From: Polytrichum commune
Lineage: Eukaryota; Streptophyta; Polytrichopsida; Polytrichales; Polytrichaceae
Direction of reading: 5' to 3'
DNA length: 64,000 nucleotides
NCBI GenBank assembly: GCA_950295325.1
Contig: OX485803.1
Span: forward strand, 21,886,001 to 21,950,000
Shown here one piece after another: positions 20,975 to 57,537 of this stretch. The notes below the pieces were generated by a model. The model saw nothing but the letters and a program-made list of their open reading frames with translations, had not been told where the DNA came from and searched no databases. Within the stretch, counting starts at the first letter, position 1; every line of letters starts with the position of its first letter. The translations under genes were made by a program, and so were the position numbers.

Positions 20975-21069
20975 TAAAAAGGCATGCCGAGTTCCAACAT
21001 GATTCGGATCGAACTTGAGCATTATCATATCGAGAATGAAGATATATGGCTTAAAATCTCACGATTTTC

Positions 21070-23664: not shown

Positions 23665-23708
23665 ATGACCGAGTTACACTTAATTAGAGCATACCTGACA
23701 AAAATTAA

Positions 23709-29846: not shown

Positions 29847-32591
29847 CATTTAATATTCCATAATCATTAGAGGGACAAAGTTAATTAACAAGGATTAGGG
29901 TTATTAAAGATATCATTTTAAATCTTGTAGTGTTATCTATGGTTGATGTCATAACTGTTGACATTAGAATTAAGGAATGAAAATGACAAAAAAAATAATT
30001 GAAATGATCCCAATTTTTTTCCTGACACTTAATATCATTTAATTCTGTATCAATTATATTATTATTCAATTGTATAGCTTTACGTATGATACCAAACATA
30101 GTGCAACATTACACAATGACATGGCGCATAATTTGTAGATTATAAGATAGGTATAATGGAAACCAAAGTATGGACAAGGGAGCTTGTCCAACAGAAAGTC
30201 CACATTAATTTCAAATTATTAATGTGTAAAAATAGATAGACATGCTCAAATCAAAACATTAGTACGTATTATGGAAGGTCTCAATGTGCACTACATCACT
30301 CCGCTCTAAATTTTGCAAGATTGTTCATTGATAACAATGTACAAGGATAATACAACTGAATTTTTTGTTTCAAATTATTTTACAATTGTTGGCTCCCAAG
30401 AAACATATTCATGCCAAGATTTAAGTAAGTGCACTGGAACGCATGGTGTTATGAGATAACACTAATAATGAACTTGTTGATCATTAGTACAATGTAGCAT
30501 ACGCCTCAAAATAAGGTAAGTGACACTTTTATGCACGTGACACTACATACAATAAATGGTTTAGTACAGTTCGTTATTCTCAAGAAAGAAAATGATTGTC
30601 TATTCTTGGTGAATACCCCTTAGAGCTTATTATGAGCTGAAGAGGATGTAACATCCAAAAATGGCCAACCCTCTAATGTCATGATGTACACCTAGTTTCT
30701 CTAACTTGTGTTGCATCGTGAATGAAATTCTGGTGACTGCCTTGAAGTTTTTTAACAAACATCAGAGCAATATAACTCTATTAGCACTGAGGTTCTTGAC
30801 GAAGTAGAAACACTTCGAGTTTGAAAGTTTAAAAGTGTACTGAGGTTCTCGACAAAGTAGAAACACTTGGAGTTCTTGCAGTTCCAACATTTTGAAAAAC
30901 TGAAGTAAAATTTGAAAGTTAAGGTAGATGGGTTATAAGTGGTTCGTTTTCTTAATCGGACCCCTATACCTTATTGGTATTGGGTTTGGTTCAGAAGATC
31001 AAAAAGCAAACATCATAATGATAAGTGTTTAAAAGTGACTGAACTACGTTTTCAAATTATAATAATTATTGTACACTCAATAGTGAACACAATTGGGAGG
31101 ACCTACTTCATGTATCCAGTTAAGAAGTCAACAAACATGCACTTCCGATATCCATAACTAAATCGAGGGAGGTCCAGTTTAAGATGCAGTTTTTGCATAT
31201 GCTTTATCATAGATTTGCTAATGCAGTACGAGTTTTGTTTTAGAGTTCTAATCAGGAGGACCTGGGATACATGAAGACCACCAAATAACACTCACATACC
31301 TTAAGTAAACTTGAAGTCACAACCAACCAAAAGGTTGGCTATTTATGGCCCACTCCTTGTCTAGCATCTATGCTCACAAAGAGGAATGACTAGCTGCAGG
31401 GTTTTGGAGATTTTTGAGCTCAACCAGCTAAAATCCGCCCCTTCACAACTTCTACAGGTTTCTTCAGGATTTGACCGGTTGCAAACAGGATTTGACTTGT
31501 TGCCATTAATTTGGACCGGCCAATATCCTTTTTCTTTTTCTTTTTCAAGTGCTAGCTAATTTCCTCTTCATTGTAATGACAACCGGCCAAAAACTTGGGC
31601 ATTCATAAGTAAGCTGGTTTTCCAATGTAGCAAAATTATATACAAACAACATACACCATTCAACAACAACGTCCAAAGAACATATCAACATACAACAATA
31701 ACATGTAATGATATCAACATCCAACAATGATGATCAACAATTCATTACATACAAGAAACAACAACAATGTTCAACAATTTATTCATAGCTGGAGTTGAAC
31801 CTAAAATAACCCATCAACCGGTTGATGGCTATGGATTTACTCTTCTATCATACCTAGGTCTTAAAACCTCATATTAGATTTGAGGCCACAACATGATAAA
31901 AGAGTAACCCAACATACCATACTATATACAAAAATGAAAGTCATCAACTATTGGAGTGAAAATCAACAGTATCGTCTTCACCTTCAAGAGGAAAACGCCC
32001 TGAAAGGTATCTCTGTGGATGTGAAAACAACCCATCTAAACTTTGTAGAGTTCCTCCATAAAGCTATGGCTTTCATTAGTACGTTATCAAGATCACCACG
32101 AAGATCTTCCATAGACACACTCATAATACATTCTAAACACTAGCCGTCAACAATGAAATGCAATAATGAGGCAAAAGCTTTGTGTGTCCGCCATTCACCA
32201 AATTGCTACAAGCCTATAACGAACACATAACCTAAACCCTAGAACTAGGTGATATCCGGCCCTAGATGAATCAAACTGGATGAAATTTGCCTATTTCATA
32301 ATTCATCTGGGTAAAAATCCTCCTCCTCAAAATGGTTGCCGGTTGAAATCTGTTTTTTTATTTTAAAAAACACCGGTTTCACATCCTCCACTTTCCCAAT
32401 ACAACCGGATTTTTCACAAAACCAACTAGCCACCATTACACTTAGTCCATTGACCAACTGAAAGACCTGGTTGTAAATAAAATTTGGCTTCCTTGGATTC
32501 CTCTTCCTCGTGCCACTACATTCATGCCCCTGACATCGCCCTAAATTAAGGCCATGTACACTTTGACACAAGCTCGCAAGAGGTTGCGGTC
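29847..32591. other. No recognisable gene (2.7 kb)
   Basis: AT-rich sequence. The first 328 bp are shared with block C. Short frames such as 31880-32143 and 32296-32571 carry no known motif. Confidence 0.45.
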
Positions 32592-33025: not shown

Positions 33026-33354
33026 TTTTGGGCACAATTGGTTGAGATCCTAGTGTTTGCAAGTCCAACCGGTTAGATGTTCACATCCTCCGGTTTTTCC
33101 TTTATTATGTTGGGGTATATTCTACACATTCCTCTAAGGGGCGGTTTATACTATGGACCATGAAGTCGTCCCACGTAAGAGGCCTATTTTGCGTGGGACG
33201 ACTTCCATGGTCCGAGTTACTAAAATATTAGTTTTCATGGTTCATGGGCCCTTCACTAGGTGTCAACCGAATGTGGACCATGAAGAATGACCATGAACCA
33301 AAAAGTGGAGATGATGATTTTTTTAATACATGCCCAAAAAGCAGGGTTGTCTAT

Positions 33355-33440
33355 CGCGACGTCATGACGGTGTCGTGCCGTCATGTCGTGTCGTGTCGTG
33401 ACGGACCCCTCCGTCACGACACAATAGGGTCCACGTGGGG
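33355..33440. promoter_or_regulatory. Subterminal GTCGTGACGG / CCGTCACGAC motifs, candidate transposase-binding sites
   Basis: Several direct and inverted copies of TGTCGTGACGG-like motifs lie within about 100 bp of the left TIR, and again at 49080-49146 beside the right TIR. They are also in the ends of all short family members (for example 640-720, 20215-20280 and 29790-29830). Clustered subterminal motifs are where hAT transposases commonly bind, but binding here is inference. Confidence 0.5.
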
Positions 33441-33481
33441 TCAACATAGGGTGAATGGACTAGGGTGGGTAAAATACTTAC

Positions 33482-33579
33482 CTTCTTGCCAAGGTGGCGT
33501 CCTATGTGGCAGAAAACGCCGACGTGGATGTGCATATTTCCCTTGCCAAGTAAACCATTTTGCCATTGTGTTTATCATT
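33482..33579 (-). other. Splice-bounded cassette at left end of giant hAT
   Basis: On the minus strand a 98-nt segment lies between an acceptor (GATTTTAACAG) and a donor (AAG|GTAAGTATTTT) that reads toward the left TIR and into flanking DNA. It is the same cassette as at 498-595. Confidence 0.45.
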
Positions 33580-33607
33580 CTGTTAAAATCAAAGTAGAAA
33601 AATATGA

Positions 33608-33705
33608 CTAAGGAGGGTGTGGGGCGGACGGGGGCGGACGGGGGAGGGGGGTTGGGAACGGGGGGGAACGCTGGAGCGGACGGGGGAACGCGGAGGGGAG
33701 CGGGG
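33608..33705. repeat. G-rich minisatellite, left end of giant hAT
   Basis: Imperfect units of GCGGACGGGGG and GGGAACG lie on the plus strand. It is the short counterpart of the three internal arrays. Frames through it are artefacts. Confidence 0.75.
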
Positions 33706-33875
33706 GGGAGGGGAACAACGTGCAATTGCGGCCATATATTTTCTGGCAGTAGAAATAATATTGCATATTCATGTAGAAGACTTCATTACCTATTCATGGA
33801 TACCAAGAACTCATTTTTTCAACTTCATATGAATTTTTGAGAGCCAAAAAACCGAGACTATGTCCAAACTTTCAA
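33706..33875. repeat. Dispersed ~150-bp module, copy 1 of 3
   Basis: Starts with ggggaacaacgtgcaattgcggcc and includes agaaataatattgcatattcatgtag and ggataccaagaactcatttttt, ending near aaaccgagactatgtcc. Related copies at 37104-37275 and 40435-40575 lie next to the other G-rich arrays inside the same transposon, implying internal duplication of an array-plus-module unit. Confidence 0.8.
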
Positions 33876-34611
33876 AAAAAAATGTTTCTGAATTATATAA
33901 ATATAAATATAAGCAATTGTGAAGAGTCCTTGTGAGAGAATACCATTCATAAAATTGCACACCCAATCAAAACTTTATTCAATATCAAGTTTACAAATCA
34001 CGAGTGAATATGAATCAATGTAACTGGATGTGTAGTTTTTATCATCCATATTATGGTTGTATTTCATCCGTTAACGTTTATAGAGTCAGATTTACAAAGA
34101 AGGAAGTATCATTTTGTTAACATTTAACACGTTTAACATTTATAGTGTGCAATATGTGGGGAGTAGAAGAAAGTTAACATTTAGAGATGTTGAGGATCAC
34201 GTGTACAACCGATATAACTATTACAATATTGTGCTCAACTTTAGTTAACTAGATATAACTATAGTTGACTACATTTTGTGGCATACCAAAATTAGAATAA
34301 ATATAGGTAACTGCATTTTGGCAAGACATATCACAAACAACTATAGGTAACTTGAACTTAGCACATGGATGTGATAACAACGATGTGAAAGAACGATGTG
34401 GCCTCACGAGAGGCGAGAACCTTGGTTAGCCTCCCATAGACTTCTTCTCGATTATGGAGCAAAAGCCTCATGGAGTATGAACATTGCACTAAGATCCATA
34501 AACCTCATACAATATACAAGTTTTGTATGAAAAAATGATGGCTTTATTTACATCTCCAACGGTTACAAAATTGGTATGATTCAAAATTGCTGCAAAAAAA
34601 ATAAAAAAAAT
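33876..34611. other. AT-rich, no recognisable gene
   Basis: Lies between the module repeat and the 3' end of the kinase-like gene. No coding frame or RNA gene recognised. Confidence 0.5.
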
Positions 34612-36528
34612 CTATTTTGCAGTGTCACGGAAGCACATTGTCGGGTTAACCATGTTGTATGGAGGGGACTTCAAAATGTTCACTACGTGTGTGATGGTTG
34701 ACCTTTCCGCTGGATTGGTCTTCGTCAATGAATCCAATGCTAACGCAAACCGCATATTCAAGCCATTTGGATCACTGTTTAGCTGAAACAAGGGGGAAAT
34801 CGCATCCCTGGCATAAATCTTCTTTGCCAAAGCACCCACTGAGAAGGACTCCGAGAGAAACGTGTGTCTATGTTTCCGAGCCATCCTCACCGGAGAGGTG
34901 GATGTTCCACGCTGCCCTCGTACATGGAATAATTCTGGACCAGCACAGTTGTATTTTGCTTTGTGCTTGTTCATCTCATCCACTGAATCTCTTCCATAGT
35001 TGGAGGGTGCGTCTTCACCTCCCCAGGATGTCATGCCCCAATCACACACACCAATGTAAACCGTGTTATCACGGTCTTGTGGGAAATGCAGCATGATATT
35101 GTTGGGATTAAGGTCATTGTGCAACACGTCATGCTTGTGCACTACATCCACAATGCACATTAGAGCCCATGCCAAATAAGCTCAATGCCTTCGATATACA
35201 ATCAACCGTTTCCGTACTTCAAAGTCTGCCCCAGGCATTTGAAGGATTGTGCGCTCGTGGGTTTCCGGAACGCTGAAGTCATAGACCCTCATGTTCTTCA
35301 AGGAGCCTCCATTCCACCACATCGAATAGGATTCGTATGTTTTCATATTGAGGTATTGTAGCTTGATTACCCCAGGATGATCTACTGGACACGCCAATGC
35401 TTCAACTGAACGTTCCTTTCGATTCTTCAAACTATTCGTGGCCTTCATGGTCTTCCCAGCCCACTCTATCCAGCTAGGGATGAATGATGCTCCATGAATT
35501 GCGACTCTCCGCACCACTCCGAAGGTCCCTTGGAAGATTTCCTTATCCAAGGCTTTGATCTCCGCATTCCTAGGCAACCATATGACACCCTACCAGCCCT
35601 GAGTGGCAATGTTGTCTGCCATCTGCCTGTCAATAAAAATGGGAAGGTTGCGGGCGGATGTTCCTTTTGCTGCTATTACGCCTCTTTTCCAATTCTCTAG
35701 CTTCATGTACAGCTTGGACTTCCTGCCACTACTATTTCCCTCGCCAGGATGCAGAGCATCATATGCCATTGTTGGATTGTAGATTGCTTCCCTGGCTTGT
35801 TGTTCAATCCAGGTGTCCCAATCGTTCATGCCCCTAGCTTCTTCAAACTCCGGTCCAGCCGTGGCTTCCGTGAGAATAAGCATCAATTCGTTCCTCACCA
35901 ACTCTAAACCCTTTGTACCATCATTGAGGTATTTTTTTTCCAAATAAACCATGCTGTTATTTCTAAACCACTCCAACAGCACGACCCTACAATGGTTTCG
36001 AGCCTCATCGATCCGCGGGTCGCGTTTGCCTCTATTTTTCATTTTCCTCAATTGCGAACCTGATACCGCGGACCCCTCCTCCGTTCCTTCCGAAACTGCT
36101 GGGCGTTTCTGTCCCCGTCTTTCACCATGCTCCGAACCCTGAGGTACATCACGTGCAGGGCTCTCCGGTCTTGATGTCTGCTGTGTCGGAGATCGTGGTG
36201 GCACGGACTCACCACGAGTGGCTGCATTTATATCTGTGGAACTGCCTGAGCTTGGTCCCCTTCCTGTTCTCCCTCTAAGGCCACTGTTTCCCCGACTCCC
36301 ACGTGTTCCACGGCTTCCACGTGTTTGGTTGCCTCCTGAATGACCAACAACAAAGAACTCTTCGCCAAACCGAAAAGGATCTGGACGTGGGGGACGGGCT
36401 ACAGTACTTCCACTTCCGGCATTGCTTCCCGTACCCTCTCCAGTATACGCAGATGGAGTGCGTTGGAGCCAAGCACGGTGCACCCTCGTATCCTCGTCTT
36501 GGTAAGGAGCAATGTCCTCCCCCTCCAT
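34612..36528 (-). pseudogene. Protein-kinase-like cargo gene with two in-frame stops
   Basis: A single frame of 638 codons runs from ATG 36528 to a stop at 34612. It is broken only by TAG (35590-35592, codon 313) and TGA (35182-35184, codon 449). Residues 1-200 are low complexity (Gly/Ser/Arg/Pro). Residues 200-312 form a charged globular part I do not recognise (RVVLLEWFRNNSMVYLEKK). From about 325 on there is a kinase domain: P-loop GTFGVV (334-339), lysine in AGKTMKA (359), catalytic loop HNDLNPNN (470-477) and DWG (496-498) for DFG. In the HRD motif Arg is replaced by Asn. The catalytic Asp, the loop Asn and the metal-binding Asp are present, so activity is possible if the ORF were intact. 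TTG-initiated extension upstream of 36528 is unlikely. A TATA box lies at 36754-36762. Both stops are one C-to-T change from sense. Confidence 0.8.
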
Positions 36529-36753
36529 CGTGAAAAAAACCGCGTGAATGAGTGAATGTAGAAATGAGTGAGTGAATGTAGAAATCAACAAGTGAATCTG
36601 GAAAAAAAATTGCGAGGGTTCCCCCACAATTTGCCCTGCCCTCCCAAACCCCCTGAGACCCGCGCGGTGCCCCTGTCCTTGGGACGGCAACAAGGTCTCG
36701 GGTCCCTTTGTGGTGGGAGGAGAGGAAAGTGAGGGGAACTAAAGCCCCACGGC

Positions 36754-36762
36754 TTTATATAG
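36754..36762 (-). promoter_or_regulatory. TATA box of kinase-like gene
   Basis: On the minus strand the sequence reads CCTATATAAAG, about 225 bp upstream of the ATG at 36528. A G-rich minisatellite begins about 65 bp further upstream. Confidence 0.6.
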
Positions 36763-36825
36763 GCAAAGCGGTGCACAATCATTATGGGATCCCGGTCGGA
36801 TTTGACATGGGGCACGAAAAGGACG

Positions 36826-37103
36826 TATGGGGAGCGTGGGAACGCGGAGGCGGACGGAGGGAACGAGTGGGCGGACGTAGGGGAACTCGGGCGGACGGGA
36901 GGGAACGAGGGGCGGACGGGAGGGGAACGCGGGGCGGACGGGAGGGGAACGCGGGGCGGACTGGAGGGGAACGTGTGGCGGACGGGAGGGGAACGCGGGG
37001 CGGACTGGAGGGAACGGGAGGGAACGTGAACGCACGGAGGGGAACGTGGAGCGGACGGGTGGGGAACGTGAGGCGGACGGGAGGGAACGGGTTGAAGGGG
37101 GGC
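36826..37103. repeat. G-rich minisatellite upstream of kinase-like gene
   Basis: Imperfect units of roughly 20 bp such as gcggacgggaggggaacgcg. Proline/arginine-rich frames on either strand follow from the repeat and are not genes. Confidence 0.85.
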
Positions 37104-37275
37104 AGGGGAACAACGTGGAATTGCGGCCATGTATTTTTTGGCAATAGAAATATTATTGCATATTCATGTAGAGGACTTCATTACCTATCCATGGATACCA
37201 AGAACTCATTTTTTGGACTTCATATGAATTTTTGAGAGCCAAAAAACGGACACTATGTCTAAACTTTTAAAAAAA
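37104..37275. repeat. Dispersed ~150-bp module, copy 2 of 3
   Basis: Close relative of 33706-33875, starting ggggaacaacgtggaattgc and following the G-rich array directly. Confidence 0.8.
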
Positions 37276-37282
37276 AGTGTAA

Positions 37283-37855
37283 ATGACCGAGTTCACACTA
37301 TGGCCGTCCAAGTCGAGAGGCCGTGCGATTGAGTGGCCCAACTTTGTTGAGAGTCCAAAGAAATGAACTGAAAATAGCCAATAAAATATAGTAAGGATAG
37401 CCTTAGTTGGGCATAGTGTGAAGCCTCCAAAGGCCAAGCGCAAAGTCCAAACCTTTGGCCATGAACTCCCACGGCCTCTCGGCTTGGATGGCCAAAGTGT
37501 GAAGCCTCCAAAGGCCAAGCCCAAAGTCCCTTTATTCCTTGCTCAAAATAACCCCTCCAATCTAACGGCCAAGATCTTGTCAATGATTGATTATTTTAAT
37601 GAAAAAAAAGTTCGGCCTCTCGACGGAAGTTTGGGTTGAGCATTTTGCTATACCCAAACTTTGCTCGAGAGGCCGAACTCTTGGCGCCATAACTTCCTAA
37701 AAGTGTTGCCACCTAGGCTCTTTTGGAGGCGACGTCCTTTGGACTTCGGCCTCTAGTGTGAAGGCCGAGAGGACGGACTTTGGGCATTTCAACATTTTCA
37801 TTGGTCCAAATGTTGAACCTCTCAAAGTTTGGCCATATTGTGAACCGGCCCTTAG
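37283..37855. mobile_element. Harbinger-like MITE inside the giant hAT (tentative)
   Basis: The left end (gaccgagttcacactatggcc) and the right end, read on the other strand (ggccggttcacaatatggcc), are imperfect inverted repeats and resemble the termini of the Harbinger-like element at 33138. The interior repeats aagcctccaaaggccaag at about 37421 and 37501. Exact ends and target duplication are unclear. Confidence 0.5.
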
Positions 37856-38910
37856 ATTTGCAATACATGTCTTATTCTTTTTTTGGCACAAATTGAAAAT
37901 TCAAATTCAAAATATAACCAACCCAGCCGAAACAGCGCAGCCTAAGTGGAAATCTATAAATAATGCTCATTTGAGGCCTATCCTTCCAAGTAGGGACTAA
38001 GTTGCTACGGGTCACAATAAGACCTTTGACCCCCCAAATCAAATCAAATTTGTTAAGAATGTCATGGTAGGCCACGTCCGACCCTTTTTCCAAGTCCCTA
38101 AGCATATGTTTCCATTCAATCCTCCCATAATCTGATTTGTAATACATGTCATAAAAGCTAATGCAATTATTGTTTTGAAGTCTACCATCAAATGATATGT
38201 AAGATCGTATGTTCACATGTGGTTGGTTCTTTTTATGTACCAGTTTAAGCCAATACTAAAATAAAATAAACCTTATTCTATAAAATCTAGTGACACTACC
38301 ATACAAGTTAGTAGAGATGTTGTATATTTTTTTAAATTATTCTATATATTTACATAACTACAACTTATAATTCTGTGAAGAATATGTATACATAATACAA
38401 CAAAGTTCAAATCAATACCTCTTTTGTGCACTCACATATACTCATACGGATTTAGTATAGTGCACCCCCCCAATTGATCACTAATGTGGGCCACATTAAA
38501 TTTAAGCCCACACCAATTCCCTAGTTTAATATCAATGTGGACCAGATTAATTTGCTTTTCTATAATGTTCTAATTTGTGTAAGGTGTTGGTAAGATATCT
38601 TTATGAAGCCTATGGGAACTCGGGGGATGCACTCTACATTATGTTTGAGAATCACGTGCGTTCATGACCCCTTCTAAAAACCCCAATGTATACCATAAGT
38701 TATATGTCTAAGTAGAGATTGTGCCAACTTGAAGTAGTCCTCGCGATTTGCGAACGTTTATCTTTCGCTGTAGGCATCGTAAAAAAAAGCGGGTGGATTC
38801 GTTGGAAAGCTGGGAACCTAAACCCTCAAACCATGTATGGAAACACTTCTACATGAGTGTGAGAACAAAACAATGGCACATATGTGGTAGCAATTTGGAA
38901 TGACGTAGAC
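37856..38910. other. Possible ORF fragment, otherwise nothing recognised
   Basis: A 114-residue minus-strand frame at 37872-38216 (containing YKSDYGRIEWKHMLRDLEKG) has plausible protein composition but no known motif. The rest is AT-rich with no gene. Confidence 0.35.
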
Positions 38911-38911
38911 G

Positions 38912-38947
38912 TAGGGTTTAGGGTTTAGGGGTTTAGGGTTTAGGGTT
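38912..38947 (+). repeat. Interstitial telomere-type repeat (TTTAGGG)
   Basis: About five units of TTTAGGG, one with an extra G, form a short internal array. This is the telomere unit of most land plants. Its position inside a transposon means it is not a chromosome end. Confidence 0.85.
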
Positions 38948-39249
38948 GTGAGACCATATGAACCACAAAGGTTGAAACACAAATATGTACTTTGTTGAAT
39001 TAAAATGACATTCGAATGCGTATGGGTTGTGAAACCATACGAACCACTAAGGTTGAAGCACAAATATGTGATTTGTTGAATGAAAATGACATTCGGATGC
39101 CTGAAATGCGTTGTGAAACCATATGAACCACAAAGGTTGAAACACAAATATGTACTTTGTTGAATTAAAATGACATTCGAATGCGTGTAGGTTGTGAAAC
39201 CATACGAACCACTAAGGTTGAAGCACAAATATGTGATTTGTTGAATGAA
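38944..39249. repeat. Four ~80-bp tandem repeats in alternating A-B-A-B order
   Basis: Each unit runs ggttgtga-accata-gaacca through aaatatgt and ttgttgaat to gacattc. Units 1 and 3 share the variants caaaggttgaaac and gtactttg. Units 2 and 4 share ctaaggttgaagc and gtgatttg. The array therefore arose by duplication of a roughly 160-bp dimer. Low-complexity frames on the minus strand are artefacts. Confidence 0.85.
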
Positions 39250-39517
39250 AGGACAACCCATCAAATATAGAAGCTTCAAAGAGGTATCAAAGCGGTTTCC
39301 AATGCGGGTGTCGGGGGGACTTTTTCAAAAAATACAACTAATTTTTTGACTTCAACAATTTTTTTTTTATTCCTATTGTGTTGTCTTTATCTTACCAACG
39401 AGAATTGGATCCTCTACATCTTGGATTACATCAAATATTGTAAATTTCATAAAGTCCTTTGGGCTCAGTATATAAGTAAAGCATTTAGACTCATACATAT
39501 AACGAGGGTAAAGTATC

Positions 39518-40072
39518 ATGGATAGGATGGGAGAGAAGAGAGACATGTTTGAAGGTCTAGGATGTAATGAGGAGATAGCAAATTTAGGTGAACCCGATAT
39601 TCCATTCAATCCATCACCCGAGCGTGAGAGAGATGAGAGAAGTGCTAGAGATTGATTTCGTGATGACTATGTCATGACCCCCTTCTCACAATTTACACAA
39701 GCATGGAAGTTGAGGGCGGAAGAGGACCAACGACGATATGCGGCGAAATTCGAGATCAATGCAGTGAAGAAGGACCTAACAAAAAGCGTGGGTGGAGATC
39801 CAAATGATGTGTTTGATTTGAGCGTGGATATTTGGATGAAGCCCGGGAATGTGGATGACAATTCAATCGACATTGAAGATGTCAAGGTAGCGGGAGAATC
39901 TTCAAGGACTTTGCCTTTTCGTAAGAAGAGGAGAGGATTATCGCCTCATCGGCTACCATTGAAGGAACGGATGAAAGACCGAACGATTAGCTATGTTGAT
40001 TTACTTCGACCGAATCCTCTCCCAAAAATGGACCCTCGACGGAAGCCACAAGCATCTACGAGGTTGCCATGA
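39518..40072 (+). pseudogene. Small basic cargo ORF with one in-frame stop, unrecognised
   Basis: The frame from ATG 39518 to the stop at 40072 (184 residues) is broken only by TGA at 39653-39655 (codon 46), between SARD and FRDDYVMTPF. The N-terminal part is acidic and charged (EKRDMFEGLGCNEE, PSPERERDERS), the middle has a charged helix-like stretch (LRAEEDQRRYAAKFEIN), and the C-terminal part is basic with FRKKRRGLSPHRLP. A TAA lies just upstream in frame. It may be a terminal exon of a longer gene rather than a whole one. No family is recognised. It lies between the tandem repeats and the third module repeat, on the same strand as the zinc-finger gene. The stop is one C-to-T step from CGA. 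Confidence 0.5.
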
Positions 40073-40434
40073 CGGAAGTCAAGTTGACGGAATGAAGTGG
40101 AATATTAAATCGTGCATGGTTTGTTCATGTATGTGATTTATAAAGGGCATTTGTACCGTCGTCGCAATAATAAAGTTATTACTTGTACAATATGTTGTAC
40201 CACTTCTATGATATATATTTTTTATAAAATTTCAACCAACCGCTTATTATTGCATACTTCTATGGGGTGATAATTTGTTGGTCATCATACTACATTGGTC
40301 ACTTTGTTGCTTGAGGGATCCTTCATTAGTTTTGTGTGAATAAGTACACCGGTTATGATATTTAGTGTCACATATATTATTTGCGAAGGGCCTAAGTTAG
40401 ATGGGGTGCGGATGGGGGGACGCGGGAATGTGCA
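40073..40434. other. 3' flank of small cargo ORF, no gene seen
   Basis: AT-rich sequence. A possible polyadenylation signal (aataaa, near 40168) lies about 95 bp after the stop. Confidence 0.4.
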
Positions 40435-40575
40435 GTAGAAATATTATTGCATATTCATGTAGAGGACTTCATTACCTATCCATGGATACCAAGAACTCAT
40501 TTTTTGGACTTCATATGAATTTTTGAGAGCCAAAAAACCGAGACTATTTCCAAACTTCCAAAAAAAGTTAAAAAG
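40435..40575. repeat. Dispersed ~150-bp module, copy 3 of 3
   Basis: Matches 37130-37275 but lacks the first ~25 bp of the module. It is followed directly by the largest G-rich array. Confidence 0.8.
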
Positions 40576-40589
40576 TGCAGATTCAAGGG

Positions 40590-41524
40590 GAACGCGGGAG
40601 CGGACGGATGGGAACTCTAAAGCGGACGTAGGGGAACATGGAGCGGACTAGAGGGAACGTTGGAGCGGACGTAAGGGAACATAGGGCGGACGGAGGGGAA
40701 CATGGGAGCGTACGGAGGGGAGCGTACGGGGGGAACGCGGGAGCGGACTGAGGGGAACCGACGGAGGGGAACATTGGGCGGACGGAGGGGAACGAGGGGG
40801 CGGACGGAGGGAACGCGGGGCGGACGCAGGGAACGCGGGGCGGACGCAGGGAACGCGGGGCGGACGCAGGGAACGCGGGGCGGACGCAGGGAACGCGGGG
40901 CGGACGCAGGGAACGCGGGGCGGACGGAGGGAACGAGGGGGCGGACGCAGGGAACGCGGGGCGGACGCAGGGAACGCGGGGCGGACGGAGGGAACGCGGG
41001 GCGGACGGAGGGAACGAGGGGGCGGACGCAGGGAACGCGGGGCGGACGCAGGGAACGCGGGGCGGACGCAGGGAACGCGGGGCGGACGGAGGGAACGAGG
41101 GGGCGGACGCAGGGAACGCGGGGCGGACGCAGGGAACGCGGGGCGGACGCAGGGAACGCGGGGCGGACGCAGGGAACGCGGGGCGGACGGAGGGAACGCG
41201 GGGCGGACGGAGGGAACGAGGGGGCGGACGCAGGGAACGCGGGGCGGACGCAGGGAACGCGGGGCGGACGGAGGGAACGAGGGGGCGGACGTAAGGGAAC
41301 GGGTGCGGACGGGGGCGGGAACGGGTGCGGACTGGAAGGGGAACGGGCGCGGACTGGAGGGAAACGGGCGTGGACTGGGAGGGGAACCGGCGCGGACTGG
41401 GAGGGGAACGGGCGCGGACTGGGAGGGGAACGGGTGCGGACGGGGGCGGGAACGGGTGCGGACTGGGAGGGGACTGGGAGGGGAAGGGGTGCGGACTGGG
41501 TGGGGAACGGGGAGCGGATGGAGG
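40590..41524. repeat. Large G-rich minisatellite (20-bp unit)
   Basis: The core unit gcggacgcagggaacgcggg recurs dozens of times from about 40800 to 41290, with variants gcggacggagg and gaacgagggg. A degraded zone continues to 41524. The order of variants suggests higher-order duplication (blocks of three to five units ending in gaacgaggggg). Long Arg/Pro/Gly frames on both strands are products of the repeat. The array ends at the TATA box of the zinc-finger gene. Confidence 0.92.
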
Positions 41525-41526
41525 GG

Positions 41527-41533
41527 TATATAA
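41527..41533 (+). promoter_or_regulatory. TATA box of coiled-coil/zinc-finger gene
   Basis: TATATAA lies immediately after the minisatellite, about 470 bp upstream of the first in-frame ATG at 42000. A probable 3' splice site (aaactacag at about 41955-41963) lies shortly before that ATG, so a 5' UTR intron is likely. A hairpin with an 8-bp stem (aggatccc) lies near 41636-41659. Confidence 0.6.
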
Positions 41534-41999
41534 GTGGAGGGGACCACTTACATACCCCACCCCACTCCTTGTGGGCGCCCGGACGACCCTCCTCTACTAC
41601 AGAGTGCGGGGTAGCGGGGTGCTCGGAGGAGTTTAGGATCCCTTTTTTGGGATCCTTTTATACTCTTTTTACTGACCTGTTTGTGGGTGTGATCCACGTG
41701 GACTCGTTCCCTTGTGACGTGGCATATTGCTTTTTTGGCATATTCATTGTGACGCGCCCAGTCAACTGGCCTCTGCGTGAGCGCTGGTAGCGGGGTGCTC
41801 GAAGGGTGTGCTGAATTTTTGAACTTTAAATTTTAACGATATTTTTGAACTAATTCCATAGCAACACTATTTTGAAGTGTATGCTTGGATGTTTTGTAGC
41901 ACTATTATGAAGTGCAATTAGTAATTTAAAAATTAGAGTTCTAGATTAGAATTAGAAACTACAGTTTGGGTGGATACGGCAAGTGAAGGATTTCCAGAC

Positions 42000-44303
42000 A
42001 TGGCAAGTCGAGGATCTGGAGACATGGCAAGTGCAAGTGGAGGATCTGGGGACATGGCAAGTGGAGGATCAGGTTGTCACAGATCACATGTACGCAAGGC
42101 CGCTGGGTTGGAGTGGGATGTTTATGATGACAACATCCAAAAAACCAGGGCAGGTTGTGAGAATGTACCACAACCGTGGTCAGCGAAGACTGCAATGCAG
42201 TATGTGGGCTTCCCTCACTTTGATCGGTTGTGGCCAAGACCTTGTCACGAACGACATTGCAAGGCCATCAGTGCGAGTTATATGCAGCTTGATGACGTGG
42301 AGGCAAAATGGAGATTCCTAACGATACTTAGAAGTATCTCCAATTTGGATAGATGGCCCAAGAGTGCAATACCAAAGTCGGTGGCGTGTATGATGTATGC
42401 GGAGCACGTGTTGCGAGTTAGGGTGGATTGGTCAAGTTTGGCTACTCTGCATAATCAAAAATTTGGGGGTATTGGAATTACATTCACTAAATGCACAGTT
42501 CCAGATATTCCATACACTCCCGTTCCGGAGTGGTTCAGGAGGAATCCTCGACTAGTGGATGAGCCTGGGGCCCCAATTCCAGAGGGTCGGGAACCAAAAA
42601 AGCCACGTAATCGTAAACGACCACCCAATGACGTGGAGATGGCCATCGAGGAGGCGTTTGAGCATATGGATGAGGGCATGGAGGCAAATGTCGAGGTCAA
42701 CAACCTGATCAACGACGTGGTTAACGAGGTCCTAGACGAGGTAAACCTTGGTGAACTTGGAGCGGACCCGATGGAGAGCAGAATGGAGGATTTGCGTAAG
42801 CAACATGCGTTGGAAATTCGTGAGTATAAAACGATGATTTTCGAGTTGGAAAATCGAGTTGCAACACTTACGATGGGGGAGGCTAGCAGTTCAAGTAGTA
42901 CACCACTTAACCTTCAGTCTTTGGAAGCAGAGAGGGACGCAGCTTTACAGGAGGCCAAGATTGCAAAGTCACAAGCTCTGGAAGTATGTATGAGGAATGA
43001 AGTAATGCAAGGAAAGATAGAGACTTTGCAAAAAAAGGTGGTGGATATCCAACAACAACTTCAAGTGGTCAATGAAGTGGTTGTTGATCACGAAGCCAAG
43101 ATTGGCGGACTGGAGGAGCAGAATGCAAGGTTGAAGAAATTCCTGTTGGATGCGATTGTGGAGCGCAAGAATATGAGGACAAGCACATTGCTTGCTATGG
43201 CCAAGGCTCGTCAATTTGAAGTTGAGTTTGAGAGCATCTAGAAGGAATGGAACCGCAATCAGAGAATGCGGAACATGATGCTCACGTCATGGCCAGAAGA
43301 CGAGCATATGTACCCTAGTAGGTGGGATATAACTAATGAGTGGATATTGCCAAACAGGAGCATCGATTGGCGTCAAGTGACCGACCCAGATCACCATTGG
43401 GATGTGACCCAAGTGCATGAATATCCATTCCGCATGAGGGGTGAGTTGTTATGGCCAAATCCACATACAATGGTCTTCGATGGAACCGCGTGTGCGATTT
43501 GCCAATCTTCATTTGGTCCGGAATGATGCTATCAAGTTGGATCATGTGGGGCCCAATTCCATCCGCAATGTCTAATAGGGAATATGATCAAGAAACGCCA
43601 ATGTCCTCATTGCAGATCACCCTTCCACCCTCGTTTGTACCTCCAATTTGGCCTTTGGGATTACATGCCTAACGACTGGGTATTAAAGCCATGAGATTTT
43701 CCCTTCGATCTTCAAAAGTTTGATGGAGAGAATGTTGAGTGGAGTTGGTTATACAATTGTGCCAAAGTTGAGCTATGGCACGAGAACAGAGATGGCGACT
43801 GGACACGGAATGCACGTCAAATTTTGTATGTTGCAGACGAGTTGTATCCCAACAAGCCCCCCGATCATGGCTTGAAAAGATTTTTGTACCAAACTCTTGA
43901 ATGATATTGGGATTCAACCAGCAGACAATTGAAGAGAGGCATTCATCCTCCTTGGTACAATGCAGCAGGTCTCGAATCAGTATCGGAGCATGATTTGGAA
44001 GAAGATGCAGATGACATGCCTACGGAACGGGATCCGATATATGAATTGCAGTTAGAGGTGGGGTACCACAAGAACAGGCTGCAGTTGGCTGCAATTGATG
44101 CACTCTTGCATAGAGTTGCGGATGATGTGGTATTGAGATGGCTAAATGGTGGGCCTAGACCACGTAATGCTGTTCCATTGTCTCCTGGTAGTCGTCCATA
44201 CCTCACCCGTGGAACAACGCGAAGCATGGAAGCGGGGGAATCATCTCGAGCACGACGAGGATCTACTTCAGCTAGAATAGACCTCGATTCAGATTCGGAT
44301 TAG
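42000..44303 (+). pseudogene. Coiled-coil plus RING/PHD-like zinc-finger cargo gene with four in-frame stops
   Basis: One frame of 767 codons runs from ATG 42000 to TAG 44301-44303. It is interrupted by TAG (43239, codon 414) and TGA (43524, 43692 and 43902; codons 509, 565 and 635), with no frameshift. Residues 1-30 repeat GDMAS/GGSG. Residues 35-190 form an unrecognised globular domain with WDVYDDNIQKTR and PHFDRLWPRPC. A basic patch (KKPRNRKRPP) follows. Residues 255-410 are heptad-like coiled coil (LEAERDAALQEAKIAKSQ). Residues 498-538 give C-x2-C, C-x4-H-x2-C and C-x2-C (CAIC, CGAQFHPQC, CPHC), a RING- or PHD-like finger. In a canonical RING the Ala at 518 would be a ligand. The C-terminal part, about 570-767, is acidic then Ser/Arg-rich. 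A role in ubiquitin transfer or chromatin binding is possible but not shown. Confidence 0.75.
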
Positions 44304-45002
44304 GCATTTTTGTACCATGTTTAGAAAGTTGTATAGGAACGGAGGAAGACTTTGGACACAATGAACATATTTCATGTTCAAAGAATATGTAATATAAAGA
44401 GGATTTACCGACAAGTTGTCATTTCTAAGATCGTGTAAAAGATAGCATATGGATGCCACATGTTTTAATGTTATTCGAAATTTTTAAAAACTTACTTGAA
44501 TATTAGTAATTCATATGATAGTCTAACCAAAAGTACTATTGACTACATAGTCAATATTGAATACCACATAAAGATATAATTATATAAAACGGATAGAAAG
44601 GTCCTCAAAAAGAGGATGTCACCAACAAAGCATGTACAATCGAGCAATAGGAGATTGTATTATTTATAAAAGTATTTTCTTTAAGAAGCTCAATAAATAA
44701 ACATAAAACTCCATTCACAGTAAGAATAATATAAAATAGTAATTAATAAAGGCATAACATGTTGTTGGAAATTAATTGCAATGTTAAGTTGACAACCATA
44801 TTGTATTTTAAAATTTTAAAAAAACATGCAATAAATAATTTTATTACTATAATAAAATGATACAACTTCGAAGATAACGTTCGCTTTGTGGTCTAAATGT
44901 CTTACCGAAGGCCCTAAGGTTGTAACTTGTATCAATTTTAACGTAAGTAATAAATTATGGGAGTACGTGGGAGCACCGAAATACCGCATTTGTGCAAAAC
45001 CA
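44304..45002. other. AT-rich spacer between convergent cargo genes
   Basis: Lies between the ends of the zinc-finger gene (+) and the transposase gene (-), so it holds both 3' flanks. aataaa-type signals occur in both orientations. No gene seen. Confidence 0.5.
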
Positions 45003-48000
45003 TTACGTTCGAATCCGTACTGTGGGATCATTTGCTTCGACACATCTTGGGTCCTCTTCAGACTCGTCTGTGCTGCAATCATCATCCGTTTGGGGAGTCG
45101 CGCTCCGAAGATGCAACTCTCGGTCACGTTGTGAGAAAATTATCTTATTGGTCGGCCGGGAGCCCTCTGCATCCTGTATGCCATTTTCATCTAGATATGG
45201 TCTACCCTCATCTTCATTGTAGTCTTCAGCAGTAAACGGAAGCGATCTTCCCTGATACCTCTTCCTAGTACGTTTGACACCTCTCGTAGTTCTCTGACGC
45301 CCTCCACCCGTACCACAACTTGAGTGCACTTCATCTCTACTTCCATCTATAAAAACATCCCCCGTTGTACTTCCGCCTCCAACTCCAAGGCCACCTGTTC
45401 CATTGGATTGACTATGTGGAAGTGAAACTGATGCGGACGGAATTGCAATTGGTATGTTCTCAACAACATGTCGACGAACAGATTGACGACGTGGCGCCTC
45501 AGTAGTAACATTTCTTGAAACATTGTGTATAGCAACCAAAGTAGCACCCACCGTAGTTGCACGTGAAACACCCAATCTAGAAGTATTGGCAATACTTCGA
45601 GTGAGAGGACGACGTTGACCTTGTGCATGCACTTGCACCGTAGAGGTGGATGCAGTTCTTTGAAGAGCACGGAATCGAGTTGTAGGTATTTCAGGAACAT
45701 TGGGCGTTTGATCTTCTACACGATGATTGGATATGAGGGAGGTGTCTATGGATTCAGAATGTACTCGGGCTGGAAGTGGATCCTGTTGAACGTGCATTGG
45801 CTCATTTGCGGGTAGTACATTGTCACCTTCACCAAAAGAAAGAGAATCGCTCCGAGGTTGCAAGGAATCTACTTCAATTCCTACATTCTCACTTGCCCCC
45901 ATAGCAACATTATGGTCAGGGCGAAACCCTTGTCCAGTGTGGAGAGTTTCAAAAGGCGGTCCTCCAATAGATCCCTCATGATCATCATGCATTCCGTCGT
46001 TATGTTGGGGGACATCCGGTTCATCAAAATCAAACACCCCAAGGTTTCCATCACCACCATTGTCATCCTCATCTTCTGAATCATGATTCTCGGAATCGAG
46101 GTCATCCAAATCAAAGTCGATGTCATCAACATTGTTGTCATCATCATTTCCGGCCCTATCATTTGGATCCACGTCATCTTCGTTATCATCTTCTTCGTCA
46201 AGGTCATCGTCAGAATGGACCTCATTCAATTCGTACCATTGCGCAGGTCTTGGGCCCCTCCGATGTCGAATGAGCCTACTATTGGTATATATGTAGACGA
46301 GGTCCTCAGCACGACTATGCTTCAAGCGATTGCGACTCTTGTTGTGAACATATGAATACATGCTCCAATTGCGTTCACATGCGGATGCGGAACATACTTG
46401 TGCAAGGATACATCTTGCTATTGTTTGAAGGGCTTTAGCTCCACCTCCCATTGCATCCCACCATTCATGGAGAGGTGCGGCATGCACGCTCGGGTCAGTA
46501 GAATCAGCAAAAGGCCCTCGATTTTCAAGGAAATCTTGGTACTGGTGGAGGATTTGGACATAAGTGTCCTCATCTTGAGCAAGCCTACGAAAAACTCAAT
46601 TTAGGATTGTCCTCGAATTCTCATCCTCATGGAGTGGGGCCCAACCACGTAGAAGCGGATTTAACATCGCTCCAGCCCAATGTAGATCATTCAACATCAA
46701 CCTCCATCTATTTTGAAACGTTAGCATAGCATTTGCAGCAAGCTCAGGGCTTAAGCAAAATGGAGGTTTACTGAATCCACGAATATGGGTTTGTAAATCA
46801 TGCATGACCCTCCAAGCCATTCCCATTGCAGGCGCCTTGCCATCAAATACACGAAGAGCTTTAACAACCGGGATCACCATATACAAGAAATTTTCGAACG
46901 TGTTCCAGAATCCATCAGAACGTATAAAGCTTCGCACAGCAGAGCCCTTCATGTAAGAGGTGTCATATCTCCTCCTCATATCACGCATTAGAGTAGGCCA
47001 ATCCTCATCAACCACCATTCTTTCCAAAGCATTGCGTACTTGGAGAAGACGTTCTATCATGATGAAGTTCGTTGCAAAACGGGTCTCTACAGGTAGGCGG
47101 AATGAGAGATTTGGTGACAACCTCCGGAATATAGCTTGAGAAGCATGATGGTTTTTAACAAATACACAAATATGGCGCGCTTTTTTTACCAACTTTTTCA
47201 CCCATTCCTCCTTCCCCCAATCTTCTAAGAGGAGATCTAGGCAATGTGCAGCACATCCTTGAAAATATAGATCGGGATTTGCTCGAATCAAGTCACGAGC
47301 AGCGGAGGCCATAACTGGGGCATTGTCGGTGCAAACTTGGACCACATTATGTCGACCAACCATTTCCACAAATGGTTGAATTTGAGCAGCAACGTAGACA
47401 TGATCCTTGTGATTTCCCGTGGTGTCAATGGTACCCAAGAAAACGTCTCCCTTTGTGCCACATTGAAGAACGTTTAGGAGAGGTCGGTTTTGCACGTTGT
47501 CCCATCCATCGCAACATAGTGTAACGCCATATTTGTCAACGGAATTCCCCAGCTTCTCCTTCACTTGCCTATCTAGGTCAACATTTTTATCAGTTAACAA
47601 CTTCGTACGGATGGCATTGTACGATGGTGGTGTGTAGGCTGGCATTCGATGACGGGCAGTTTCACGCACAGCATTAACAAATGCAGGATGTCTCACAATG
47701 TTGAAAGGAATGTTAGCTTCATAAAAAGCCGTTGCCCATGCTTTATCAAGGAGTTGTTTTGTTGACACATTGAACCCCTCCGTTATGTTGAGTTGACGTA
47801 GTTCACGAGGAGGTGTGCCATATATCACAACATCAGAATGTTGAGTGGATTGGGACATAAGCAAAGGCTCTGTTTCACTAATTACGGAGTCCGCTATAAT
47901 AGGCTCCAGAGGTACAATATCTGGCACCGGAGAGTCCTCATTTACAATGCCTACATGTAAGGGCACAATGCCTCCGCAATGTTCAAACAAGACCCTAATA

Positions 48001-48200
48001 TGCGGGGGAACCATCCTACATGTGGAAACATCACAAGCACCCCCTACAGGAGGTCTATAACCAAGGTGGGCCAACATTCTATTTCCTCGGTAAGATATGA
48101 CGAACGGGCAAAACCTACATTTAACCTGCCTTTGTGATTTACCGGGAACCATCCCCTTATCCTCGTACCAATGATCCCATGCATCATTTCGGCGTGGCAT
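45003..48200 (-). pseudogene. hAT transposase (BED/DUF659/dimerisation) with long acidic tail, one in-frame TGA
   Basis: One frame of 1065 codons runs from ATG 48200 to the stop at 45003. It is broken only by TGA at 46596-46598 (codon 535). An N-terminal BED-like zinc finger has C28-x2-C31, H45 and C56 or C61. A DUF659/RNase-H-fold region follows: LCCDGWDN (first Asp about 231), VCTDNAPVM (second Asp about 292), the insertion-domain motif CAAHCLDLL (C316/H319) and ETRFATNFIMIERLL. The C-terminal dimerisation block SASACERNWSMYSYVHNKSRNRL contains the catalytic Glu (about 609). The three acidic residues are all present. About 420 further residues are acidic then Ser/Arg-rich (DDDLDEEDDNEDD), unusual for the family. 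A splice-acceptor-like TTTGCAG precedes the ATG by about 15 bp, implying a 5' UTR intron. It would recognise and excise the family ends. TTG-initiated extension is not needed. Confidence 0.92.
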
Positions 48201-48430
48201 GACTTCAACAAAACCTGCAAATACAAACAAGTTAGAGCAAGTAACTTTGATCGCATACTAGGTCCTGTTCAAGAGTGCCACAAGGGCAACCCTAATTCAC
48301 AGTCACTAGATTGGACAAAGTATCCTTTGCATTCGGGTCTCACGCATTCAATCCTCACTCCTCAAAGGAGAATCAAAAGACTTGAGACACACTATGTCAG
48401 TGGAGGCAAAAATGGCACCTTGAACCCTCA
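48201..48430 (-). other. Probable 5' UTR and leader intron of transposase
   Basis: Lies between the TATA box at 48431-48437 and the ATG at 48200. An acceptor-like sequence (TGTATTTGCAG on the minus strand) ends near 48215. The donor was not fixed. Confidence 0.45.
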
Positions 48431-48437
48431 ATTTATA
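48431..48437 (-). promoter_or_regulatory. TATA box of transposase gene
   Basis: Minus strand ACTATAAATTGAGG, about 230 bp upstream of the ATG and about 12 bp from the start of a G-rich minisatellite, the same arrangement as at the zinc-finger gene. Confidence 0.6.
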
Positions 48438-48448
48438 GTATTCGAATC

Positions 48449-48925
48449 GGACGGGGGAGCGGACGGGGAGCGGACGGGGGGGCGGACAGGGGAGTGGGGG
48501 GGGAGCGGACGGAGGGGGGGGAGCGGACGGGGGGGTGGACGGGGGAGCGGACGGAGGGGGGGAGCGGATGGGGGGGGGGGGGTGGATGGGGGAGTGGGGG
48601 GGGGAGCGGACGGAGGGGGGGAGCGGACGGGAGAGGGTGGGGAGCGGACGGGGGAGGGTGGGGATCGGATGGGGGGGCGGACAGGGGAGGGTGGGGAGCG
48701 GACGGGGGAGCGGACGGGGGGGCGGACGGGAGAGGGTGGGGAGCGGACGGGGGGGGTGGACGGAGAGGGGGGGGAGCGGACGGGGGGGCGGACGGGGAAG
48801 CGGACGGAGGGGGGGGGGGGGGAGCGGACGGGTTGGGGACGGGGCGGGGAGCGGGAGCGGACGGGGGGGAACGTGGGCGAACGGGGGGTTGGGAACGGGG
48901 GGCGGACGGGGGGGGCGGACGGGGC
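48449..48925. repeat. G-rich minisatellite at right end of giant hAT
   Basis: Imperfect units GGAGCGGACGGGGG with long G runs. All long frames across it are compositional. It resembles the C/G-rich cores of the short family members. Many runs of three or more G give strong G-quadruplex potential on the plus strand. Confidence 0.88.
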
Positions 48926-49158
48926 TTTAGTAAATTTTTCCCCACTTTACCTTTACTTTGCTGACATGTCATCACATGTGGACATTGTAAATCCTACGTG
49001 TCCGAATTGGGTTAATGTAATTACACAAAAAAATCGGTAAAATTCAAGTCCGTCAGGATAAAGACAGCATCCAGCATAATGTCGTGACGGGACACGTGTC
49101 GTGACGGCACGACATTATGCCGGGATTACCCTCCGTCACGACACAATAGACAACCCTG

Positions 49159-50083
49159 CCAAAAAGACAATTTTGAAAAAAAAATTAAGTTTGATCATTC
49201 CTTGTCTTCTCTTGGGCTTCACTTGTCCTTCACTTCTTGTTAAATGTGTCAAAGATGTGGCTTGCAAATCTTCTCACAACAATTTTTTTAAATAAAATAA
49301 AATGAGCAATTTAATTAATACATGCTCAATGTAATTTACATGTGACATGTACCTTGTGTTGCCACTACACTAAATAGGATATTTAGTGTTTGATTATATT
49401 TAATGTTGTTACCACCCTACCTTGCTCAACACTAATTTTCAATTCTTTGATAATTAATGTTAGAAGATTTCCCATTGCACTTTTTTTGACTACCCTGATC
49501 TACAATCACTAAACCACTAAAGATTTTTCTTTTTTGTTTTGCAACTGCATTTTGTAAGAATATTGGGGTGTGTAATATACCGTTGGAAAGGTATTTTCAA
49601 GACCTTTCCAACGGTATATTACAAGCCCCAAAATTCCAAACATTACATTTGGTAGACCAAAAAAACAAATATGCTCTTAAATTCTTGAGTTCTAGATGTC
49701 CTGCGTTGTTTGGTGAAACATGTGTGAGCCGGTTTAAGGGGTAGGGCAAGGTAGTGCTGGTATGTCTCATGGGCTATGGTATAATTAAGGCGCTTAAAAG
49801 GTAGATTCATTAAAAATTTATTGAAATGGTATTTCTCTGACATGGGTCCTTGCTTTTTCCTACCAGACCACCTCTCTTGCCTCTCTCAACGCAAAACCCG
49901 TTGGACCATGTCAGTGCATTTATTAGGCCTTAAAAATTATATTTTGGGGACCTCGACCTCCATGGTCCCTCTGCCATTTTTTCCTTAGTGTAAACCAAAG
50001 TTGTCCCGTGAGAACTTCAACAGCCAATCAGCTGCCTTGCAGAGCCCTGGTCCAACTTCATGGTCCATAGTGTAAACCGCCCC
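49159..50083. other. Right part of the Harbinger-like element, non-coding
   Basis: Contains the hairpin at 49563-49631 and ends with the Harbinger-like TIR. No gene recognised. Confidence 0.55.
49571..49623. repeat. Perfect 22-bp-stem hairpin
   Basis: The arms 49571-49592 and 49602-49623 are exact reverse complements with a 9-nt loop. Weaker pairing (ttgggg with ccccaa) continues outward to 49563 and 49631. There is no poly-T tract to suggest a terminator. Confidence 0.85.
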
Positions 50084-50522
50084 TAAAATGATCGGTAATT
50101 TTCCTACAGTCTTGAACTTCAACCGGTTAACTCTCAAACTCAACCGGTTCATTTGTGACTAACTACCGGTTCTCCCTGATCATTGTTGCGGTCTTGGCAA
50201 AGATCTCAAGATGGCGGATTGCATGGAATTCTGTGCGGGAGCCACCCCAACTAACTTATAAGGCGCGGCAGGCAATGTTGGGAGTCACTTGGAGGCTATG
50301 ATCGGGGAGAACCGGCAGTTAGTTACAAATGAACCGGTTGAGTTTGAGAGTTAACCGGTTGAAGTTCAAGACTGCAGGAAAATTACTGATCATTTTAGAG
50401 GAATGTATAGAATATACCCCAACAGAATAAAGGAAAAACCGGAGGATGTCAACATGTAACTGGTTGGACTTGCCAACACTAGGATCTCAACCGATTGTGC
50501 CCAAAAATCTCCCTCATCACTG

Positions 50523-52361: not shown

Positions 52362-52767
52362 CTTCAGGATGCACACACGATGGGGGCTAAGTCCTATGCA
52401 ACACATCAATTGAACTATTTCAAGCATGTCAACATGCAAGAGGCATGTTGCAATGATTACTAAGCAAATAAAGTTTTGTACATCTCCAGGCCCTTAGAGG
52501 TCCTTACAGTCATCCATGACAAAATGAACCATGCCAGAACAACCCCACCATGTTTTGCAAATCAAATAAAAGCCATGGATGGATTTTTTAGCTACTTGTA
52601 GCGGTTACATGTGAATTTGGAAACAATTTCATTGCAGTACCTAAATGCAAGTTTGTGTTTGTAGGGTTGTACTTGGAGACATAGATGTACACAATATAGA
52701 TTATTTATAGATGAATATTAATCCCCTAGGTTGGCATTGTACAAATAATTGCACATGGACATGGTGA

Positions 52768-55045: not shown

Positions 55046-55055
55046 CTCACGATTT

Positions 55056-57493: not shown

Positions 57494-57537
57494 ATGACCG
57501 AGTTACACTTAATTAGAGCATACCTGACAAAAATTAA

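Follow-up and report, generated by a model that had tools for sequence, protein, structure and literature searches.

A 64,000-nucleotide stretch of the Polytrichum commune genome (contig OX485803.1, here C1, positions 21886001 to 21950000; hereafter the window) contains, at window positions 33342 to 49158, a single hAT transposon that carries a kinase gene and a coiled-coil/zinc-finger gene in addition to its transposase. The two cargo genes belong to the hAT family as a whole and not to this copy, copy W, alone. We consider it on balance probable that the full-length form of the family is a 13- to 17-kb, three-gene element whose kinase and zinc-finger proteins form an accessory set serving the element. 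The features of copy W that define the element and its genes are the following.

33342-49158: complete hAT element (copy W), 15,817 bp, delimited by its termini and target duplication
33342-33354, + strand: left terminal inverted repeat CAGGGTTGTCTAT, 13 bp, perfect
49146-49158, - strand: right terminal inverted repeat, the reverse complement of CAGGGTTGTCTAT, 13 bp, perfect
33334-33341: left copy of the target-site duplication ccaaaaag
49159-49166: right copy of the target-site duplication ccaaaaag
45003-48200, - strand: hAT transposase gene, 1065 codons, broken in copy W by a TGA at 46596-46598
42000-44303, + strand: coiled-coil/C4HC3 zinc-finger gene, 767 codons, with stops at 43239, 43524, 43692 and 43902
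43491-43622, + strand: zinc finger C-x2-C-x8-C-x5-C-x4-H-x2-C-x10-C-x2-C, with one stop inside it in copy W
34612-36528, - strand: kinase gene, 638 codons, with TAG at 35590-35592 and TGA at 35182-35184 in copy W
35035-35529, - strand: kinase motifs GTFGVV, AGKT lysine, HNDL and CDWG

A first-pass annotation of the window had proposed one element with perfect 13-bp termini, an 8-bp duplication and an internal transposase, enclosing a kinase-like gene and a coiled-coil/zinc-finger gene; each of these was found again, with both cargo genes inside the boundaries. According to a survey of the superfamily, hAT elements have inverted termini 8 bp or longer and target duplications of 4 to 8 bp (PMC6027215), and copy W has perfect 13-bp termini and an 8-bp duplication whose left and right copies match perfectly. 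The two halves of its transposase frame match DUF659 (8.4e-34) and Dimer_Tnp_hAT (1e-9), while the transposase of a second copy, H, matches PF05699 (9.4e-11) and PF04937 (3e-35), both above cut-off, as well as Hermes, weakly, over the same stretch (E 0.51). Because all three genes of copy W contain in-frame stops (two in the kinase gene, four in the zinc-finger gene, and one in the transposase gene) while each of them is open in other copies, copy W is a decayed, dead member of the family.

The linkage of cargo to transposase was scored across the source genome (408 Mb in 64 contigs). All counts are lower bounds, as they refer to the best candidates: those scored were 40 left-end candidates out of 608, 40 right-end candidates out of 596, 97 zinc-finger candidates out of 182, 150 kinase candidates out of 181, and 78 transposase candidates out of 223, with 24 of 147 kinase rows excluded from the linkage figures as distant relatives. 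Within 25 kb of the 78 scored transposase loci, the zinc-finger gene was found at 68, the kinase at 68, both at 61, and neither at 3, where about one neighbor of each kind is expected by chance; within 16 kb, the corresponding figures were 66, 62, 55, and 5. For the 35 transposase loci with an open frame of at least 1076 amino acids (aa) and a stop-free match, they were 32, 30, 27, and 0. Starting from the cargo, the kinase lay within 22 kb of 81 of 91 scored zinc-finger loci (1.1 expected) and the zinc-finger gene within the same distance of 82 of 111 scored kinase loci. For 40 scored left ends, the kinase lay no more than 8 kb away at 36 and the zinc-finger gene no more than 20 kb away at 30. 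At 51 of the 71 young transposase loci, the spacing between zinc-finger gene and transposase was 4.5 to 5.05 kb. The first-pass annotation had asked for other large copies with the same ends and the same cargo in the same relative positions. Such copies exist, with cargo in like places as judged from the zinc-finger spacing (51/71) and the proximity of the kinase to left ends (36/40); sameness of position holds less well for the kinase, whose cassette occurs in two orientations. That the two genes recur in most large copies found suggests that they help the element.

Eleven further loci were read individually (A to J and K), of which J and K belong to an older subfamily. All eight copies with both flanks read (A, C to H, and W) have both termini and a perfect 8-bp duplication, different in each; the left terminus of copy E has one mismatch. 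Copy B, which was fetched without its left flank, has both termini, copy I is represented by its right end only, and J and K each have a left end and no right end of their own within the stretch fetched. The bounded lengths of nine copies range from 13.3 to 17.5 kb. Of five loci listed with three long frames, three have a stop within the match to the zinc-finger protein; reading of H and I showed the transposase, kinase, and zinc-finger genes all to be open there, which answers the earlier suggestion to look for intact copies. The element would presumably move by cut and paste through its own transposase.

To gauge selection, we estimated dN/dS (the ratio of nonsynonymous to synonymous substitution rates) from the majority codons of the young groups G/H/I and A to F/W, excluding codons with a stop in either majority (two in the zinc-finger comparison). 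The ratio between these groups was 0.27 (0.14 to 0.49) for the zinc-finger gene, 0.28 (0.16 to 0.51) for the transposase, and 0.48 (0.27 to 0.91) for the kinase, and the antisense control gave 0.93 to 1.86; single pairs of young copies gave wider ranges, some reaching 1. Comparison with the older J and K yielded 0.49 to 0.51 for the zinc-finger gene and 0.43 to 0.53 for the transposase, and comparison of the kinase with J only (412 codons) yielded 0.56 to 0.60. By this measure, the zinc-finger gene is under purifying selection, with a constraint close to that on the transposase, and the kinase is probably under purifying selection as well, less surely than the zinc-finger gene. These ratios bear on the possibility that the cargo is a passenger, that is, a captured host kinase and zinc-finger gene copied without use, much as maize Ds elements carry gene fragments. 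The zinc-finger gene is indeed broken in all seven copies read of the type to which W belongs, as a passenger gene might be. However, both genes have long frames, show dN/dS below 1, and are present in two subfamilies, and neither has a close relative outside the family among the best candidates scored in two genome searches: identities among the best-scored zinc-finger candidates stop at 66%, those among the kinase candidates drop from 77% to 52% and less, and the other kinases listed from the genome are 27 to 52% identical to the hAT kinase. The passenger reading is thus already disfavored, and we regard it as decidedly unlikely. For hAT elements, even the capture of gene fragments is described as rare (PMC3260210).

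The earlier label for the zinc finger, "RING- or PHD-like," proves apt: its ligand pattern is C4HC3, as in PHD or RING-CH fingers, and the full ligand set is kept in 10 of 12 aligned copies, B and J each lacking a single ligand. The finger matches RING models weakly (zf-RING_2, 8.5e-4 in copy H; RNF38, 5.8e-4), but the RING-H2 ligand set is incomplete, the fourth ligand being Ala in the alignment with RNF38. With respect to PHD fingers, the order of ligands fits, the spacing is off in two intervals (5 and 10 residues), and no PHD match was found in Pfam at E 1. The coiled coil is a putative one, read from the sequence by eye here as in the first-pass annotation. Copies G, H, and I have the gene open, with no stops. 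Long open frames of the kinase gene also occur in other copies, and its product is predicted to be a two-part protein-kinase-like protein. Its motifs (glycine loop, lysine, HND, NPNN, and DWG) are kept in most of the 11 copies read, with exceptions at a glycine-loop residue in F, a P-to-S change beside N in C, and the D of DWG, which is N in E; copy H matches Pkinase at 3.5e-6. An alternative genetic code was considered for the stops and rejected, as the kinase stops differ between copies and other copies have a residue there.

Although the cargo is shared, its arrangement is not uniform. Upstream of 79 young zinc-finger loci (at least 85% identity), the kinase pointed in the same direction at 49 and in the opposite direction at 24, and it was not found at 6. 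Copy W is of the opposite-direction, kinase-reversed type, as are copies A to F. The features concerned, in copy W, are listed here.

33852-37089: kinase cassette, inverted in the H type (blastn of W against H, 93.7% over 3.26 kb)
33702-33885, 37097-37280, and 40388-40571: 184-bp direct repeat, three copies beside G-rich arrays

The inversion between W and H is clean, with breakpoints at the G-rich arrays. The 184-bp repeat flanks the cassette in copy W and has a single matching place in copy H, and it may be relevant to the inversion. The seven scored transposase loci of the older subfamily (below 94% identity) all have the kinase beyond the transposase, at a distance of 2.9 to 8.8 kb, and five of the seven have the zinc-finger gene in its usual place; around 12 older zinc-finger loci, the kinase was downstream at 5, upstream at 3, and not found at 4. 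This mobility of position might suggest that the element is composite, with the kinase cassette a separate mobile unit nested in the hAT. In keeping with such a unit, some copies have the cassette inverted, direct repeats flank it in W, it lies beyond the transposase in 7/7 scored older loci, and 29 of 111 kinase loci have no zinc-finger gene nearby. Yet the copies read, in which no dedicated search was made, revealed no termini or target duplication belonging to the cassette itself, the breakpoints fall within arrays, and the cassette is present at 36 of 40 scored left ends. We therefore find a composite origin very unlikely. The first-pass annotation had named nested transposon boundaries around the cargo as one result that would overturn its reading; none were seen, though the kinase cassette is found in two orientations and mostly at another place in the older subfamily.

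A feature common to all three genes is a G-rich tandem array upstream of each, with a fourth array at the left end.

33620-33712, + strand: G-rich tandem array, left end
36835-37117, + strand: G-rich tandem array preceding the kinase ATG by about 0.3 kb
40585-41520, + strand: G-rich tandem array preceding the ATG of the zinc-finger gene by about 0.5 kb
48443-48925, + strand: G-rich tandem array preceding the transposase ATG by about 0.24 kb

The word GCGGACG occurs 63 times on the + strand of copy W and never on the - strand, 62 of the 63 falling into these four clusters, against a background of 1 on both strands in the remaining 44.5 kb of the window. The kinase array is reversed together with the kinase gene in copies G, H, and I, and in J and K related words cluster, in fewer copies, upstream of the zinc-finger and transposase genes. 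Ten copies compared over a 6.6-kb block spanning the zinc-finger and transposase genes show 454 changes private to one copy. C>T or G>A accounts for 328 of these, at similar rates in the three sequence contexts (0.134 in CG, 0.120 in CHG, and 0.102 in CHH), an excess that fits methylated copies. Observed/expected CpG is 0.69 to 0.77 in the genes and 1.36 to 1.52 in the three upstream arrays of copy W. This decay also bears on whether the kinase and zinc-finger genes benefit the host, as cargo does in fungal Starships. Long frames, constraint, and many copies would all be expected of host-serving genes, but the genes remain tied to the transposase at 61 of 78 scored loci, and the copies decay chiefly by C-to-T change. 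We consider host-serving cargo highly improbable.

Several results weigh against an accessory role for the two proteins, or limit what can be claimed for it. The scores for both domains are below the Pfam cut-offs (zf-RING_2, 20.0 versus 27.3 bits; kinase, 27.0 versus 31.7 bits), and a single-sequence fold of the kinase was unusable (pLDDT 33.5). Constraint on the kinase is weak, with an upper bound of 0.87 to 1.09 in the comparison with J, and copy K has no kinase match within the stretch fetched. The 29 of 111 kinase loci without a zinc-finger gene lie in the same balance; the 22-kb distance applied to them, and a scored left end was near 6 of the 29. The high CpG of the arrays could reflect just recent array amplification. 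The zinc-finger gene is broken in 7/7 reversed-type copies read (A to F and W), with three to seven stops each; summed over these copies, it has 33 stops, whereas the transposase has 10 and the kinase 5. A zinc-finger frame of at least 768 aa was found at none of 24 reversed-type loci and at 11 of 49 other-type loci, 6 of the 11 being listed with a stop in the match. The gene is therefore not needed in cis there. The first-pass reading is thus partly supported: it stands as regards shared cargo, less so as regards the zinc-finger gene of this type.

The reversed type seems to have lost the zinc-finger gene earlier than the transposase and kinase. Some stops are common to several copies (position 125 in A, B, C, and D; position 656 in C, D, E, and W), and others recur between W and the distant copy J, with positions 435 and 586 shared between the reversed type and J, which indicates either recurrent C-to-T hits or exchange between subfamilies. 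Because stops are both shared within the type and recurring in J, common ancestry and repeated C-to-T hits are not separable. Given the loss of the gene, the protein, if it matters, would be supplied in trans to the reversed type; action in trans is suggested by the fact that one type of copy spread or persisted with the gene broken.

These observations also affect the view that both proteins are part of the transposition machinery and not silencing antagonists, as are TNPA for Spm and MURB for MuDR. Linkage, a constraint on the zinc-finger gene like that on the transposase, and the placement of motif arrays close to either end as well as within short copies are all compatible with a machinery role. 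Conversely, other hAT elements are known to move with one protein, and copies with a broken zinc-finger gene are common, so that a machinery role would need action in trans. On this evidence, we think a machinery role unlikely. We return instead to the accessory set, in which the kinase and zinc-finger proteins would be factors for the element, at least the zinc-finger protein acting in trans. Their targets might be the transposase or host chromatin proteins, reached through phosphorylation together with ubiquitin transfer or histone reading, and the arrays could provide a common control or target sequence by which the genes jointly escape silencing. By analogy with VANC for VANDAL, we infer that the function of the accessory genes is partly in trans and possibly directed against host silencing; VANC itself, to our knowledge, has neither a kinase nor a zinc-finger domain. 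A more specific proposal, which we advance tentatively and with some doubt, is that the hAT family has an anti-silencing or self-regulation module of its own, working partly in trans through the arrays of the three promoters and of short derivatives and independent of VANDAL/VANC.

Short derivatives of the family are present in the window itself, as is a further open reading frame (ORF) of copy W.

51537-52361, - strand: 825-bp non-autonomous copy with the same ends, duplication cttcagga
29187-29846, - strand: 660-bp non-autonomous copy, duplication catttaat
63016-63672: segmental duplicate of the copy at 29187-29846, the two together representing one insertion, duplication catttaat
20198-20975, + strand: 778-bp non-autonomous copy, its right end differing by one base and its duplication not clean
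39656-40072, + strand: basic ORF, part of a 209-codon frame in copy H

A partial short element with the same 13-bp ends also lies at the window start. The short elements of the window (657 to 825 bp) retain both ends with a G-rich stretch in between; as they lack the transposase along with the cargo, they are ordinary non-autonomous derivatives. A 779-bp short copy has inserted into the zinc-finger gene of the old copy J, with the 8-bp duplication ccggggaa. Elsewhere, a number of right ends are 97 to 98% identical to that of copy W and are at none of the scored transposase loci; short derivatives close to the large family may therefore be numerous. The basic ORF had been entered as an unrecognized cargo gene. 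Its dN/dS is 0.96 (0.50 to 2.8) between the young groups and 0.75 to 1.04 against the older subfamily, that is, about 1; we rejected the ORF and its 209-codon frame as a fourth gene, and with no constraint on it, it is probably not a gene.

Copy W lies within a segmental duplication, the window containing near-identical direct duplicates (1 to 8000, 17700 to 29900, and 51626 to 64000) at offsets of 51,626, 33,829, and about 17,800 bases. Three loci, C1:21867927, 21919342, and 21953168, have identical 300-bp left ends; because the region is a segmental duplication, we read them as one insertion, although they are still entered as three rows in the family counts. Inverted repeats of 94% identity are present in the flanks of the hAT (33026 to 33137 versus 50395 to 50506, and 50080 to 50183 versus 50298 to 50401), and an older fold-back-like repeat seems to enclose copy W.

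Accessory genes under selection seem, as far as we know, to occur in few plant DNA transposons, and VANC is the case considered here. With its open copies, older subfamily, zinc-finger-broken type, and cargo-free derivatives, the family offers a direct way of testing how a kinase and a zinc finger carried by a transposon contribute to movement and silencing, both in cis and in trans. A hAT with such kinase and zinc-finger cargo was not found in the open-licence literature searched, and a 2018 survey of plant hATs gives none for the moss Physcomitrella (PMC6027215). The present element resembles the hAT superfamily, of which maize Ac (4.6 kb; PMC3260210) is an example, in its CAGGG-type termini, 8-bp duplication, DUF659 and hAT dimerization domains, and short derivatives that have the element's ends. 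It differs from Ac in being three to four times longer, with two further genes and long G-rich arrays upstream of each gene. The Burro giant retroelement of planarians also combines a transposable element with RING-type and protein-turnover domains, but Burro is an LTR (long terminal repeat) retrotransposon, and the word "hAT" has no occurrence in the review that describes it (PMC6431247). Likeness to the Arabidopsis VANDAL elements, which are MULEs, extends to an accessory gene beside the transposase and to non-coding tandem repeats, some of them upstream of the transposase, that change fast between subfamilies; the VANC target regions of VANDAL are such rapidly diverging tandem repeats (PMC5735166, PMC10398659). 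The resemblance of our arrays to VANC targets is one of layout only, VANDAL belongs to another superfamily, and anti-silencing is known for VANC and proposed here by analogy. Within the same genome, a 10.4-kb dispersed repeat present in two copies (L031, C6:9374800-9384799; L032, C4:44111000-44120999), with kinases about 30% identical to the hAT kinase in the genome list, carries a kinase of the same two-part layout as that of the hAT; the two kinases are 21% identical over 469 aa (7e-16), an alignment covering the N-terminal part and the kinase domain. The aligned pieces of the repeat are 86 to 97% alike and end at the same places, with no clear termini or target duplication seen. Its ORFs comprise the kinase, an ORF that we take to be ParB-like from its motif and that had no Pfam match, and, in one copy as scanned, an N6/N4 DNA methylase (1.5e-8). 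The repeat thus differs from the hAT in its methylase and its ends, and no hAT domain was found in the ORFs scanned. In line with the tentative proposal of a module, the homologous kinase of this methylase-bearing repeat hints that mobile elements may repeatedly have made use of such kinases.
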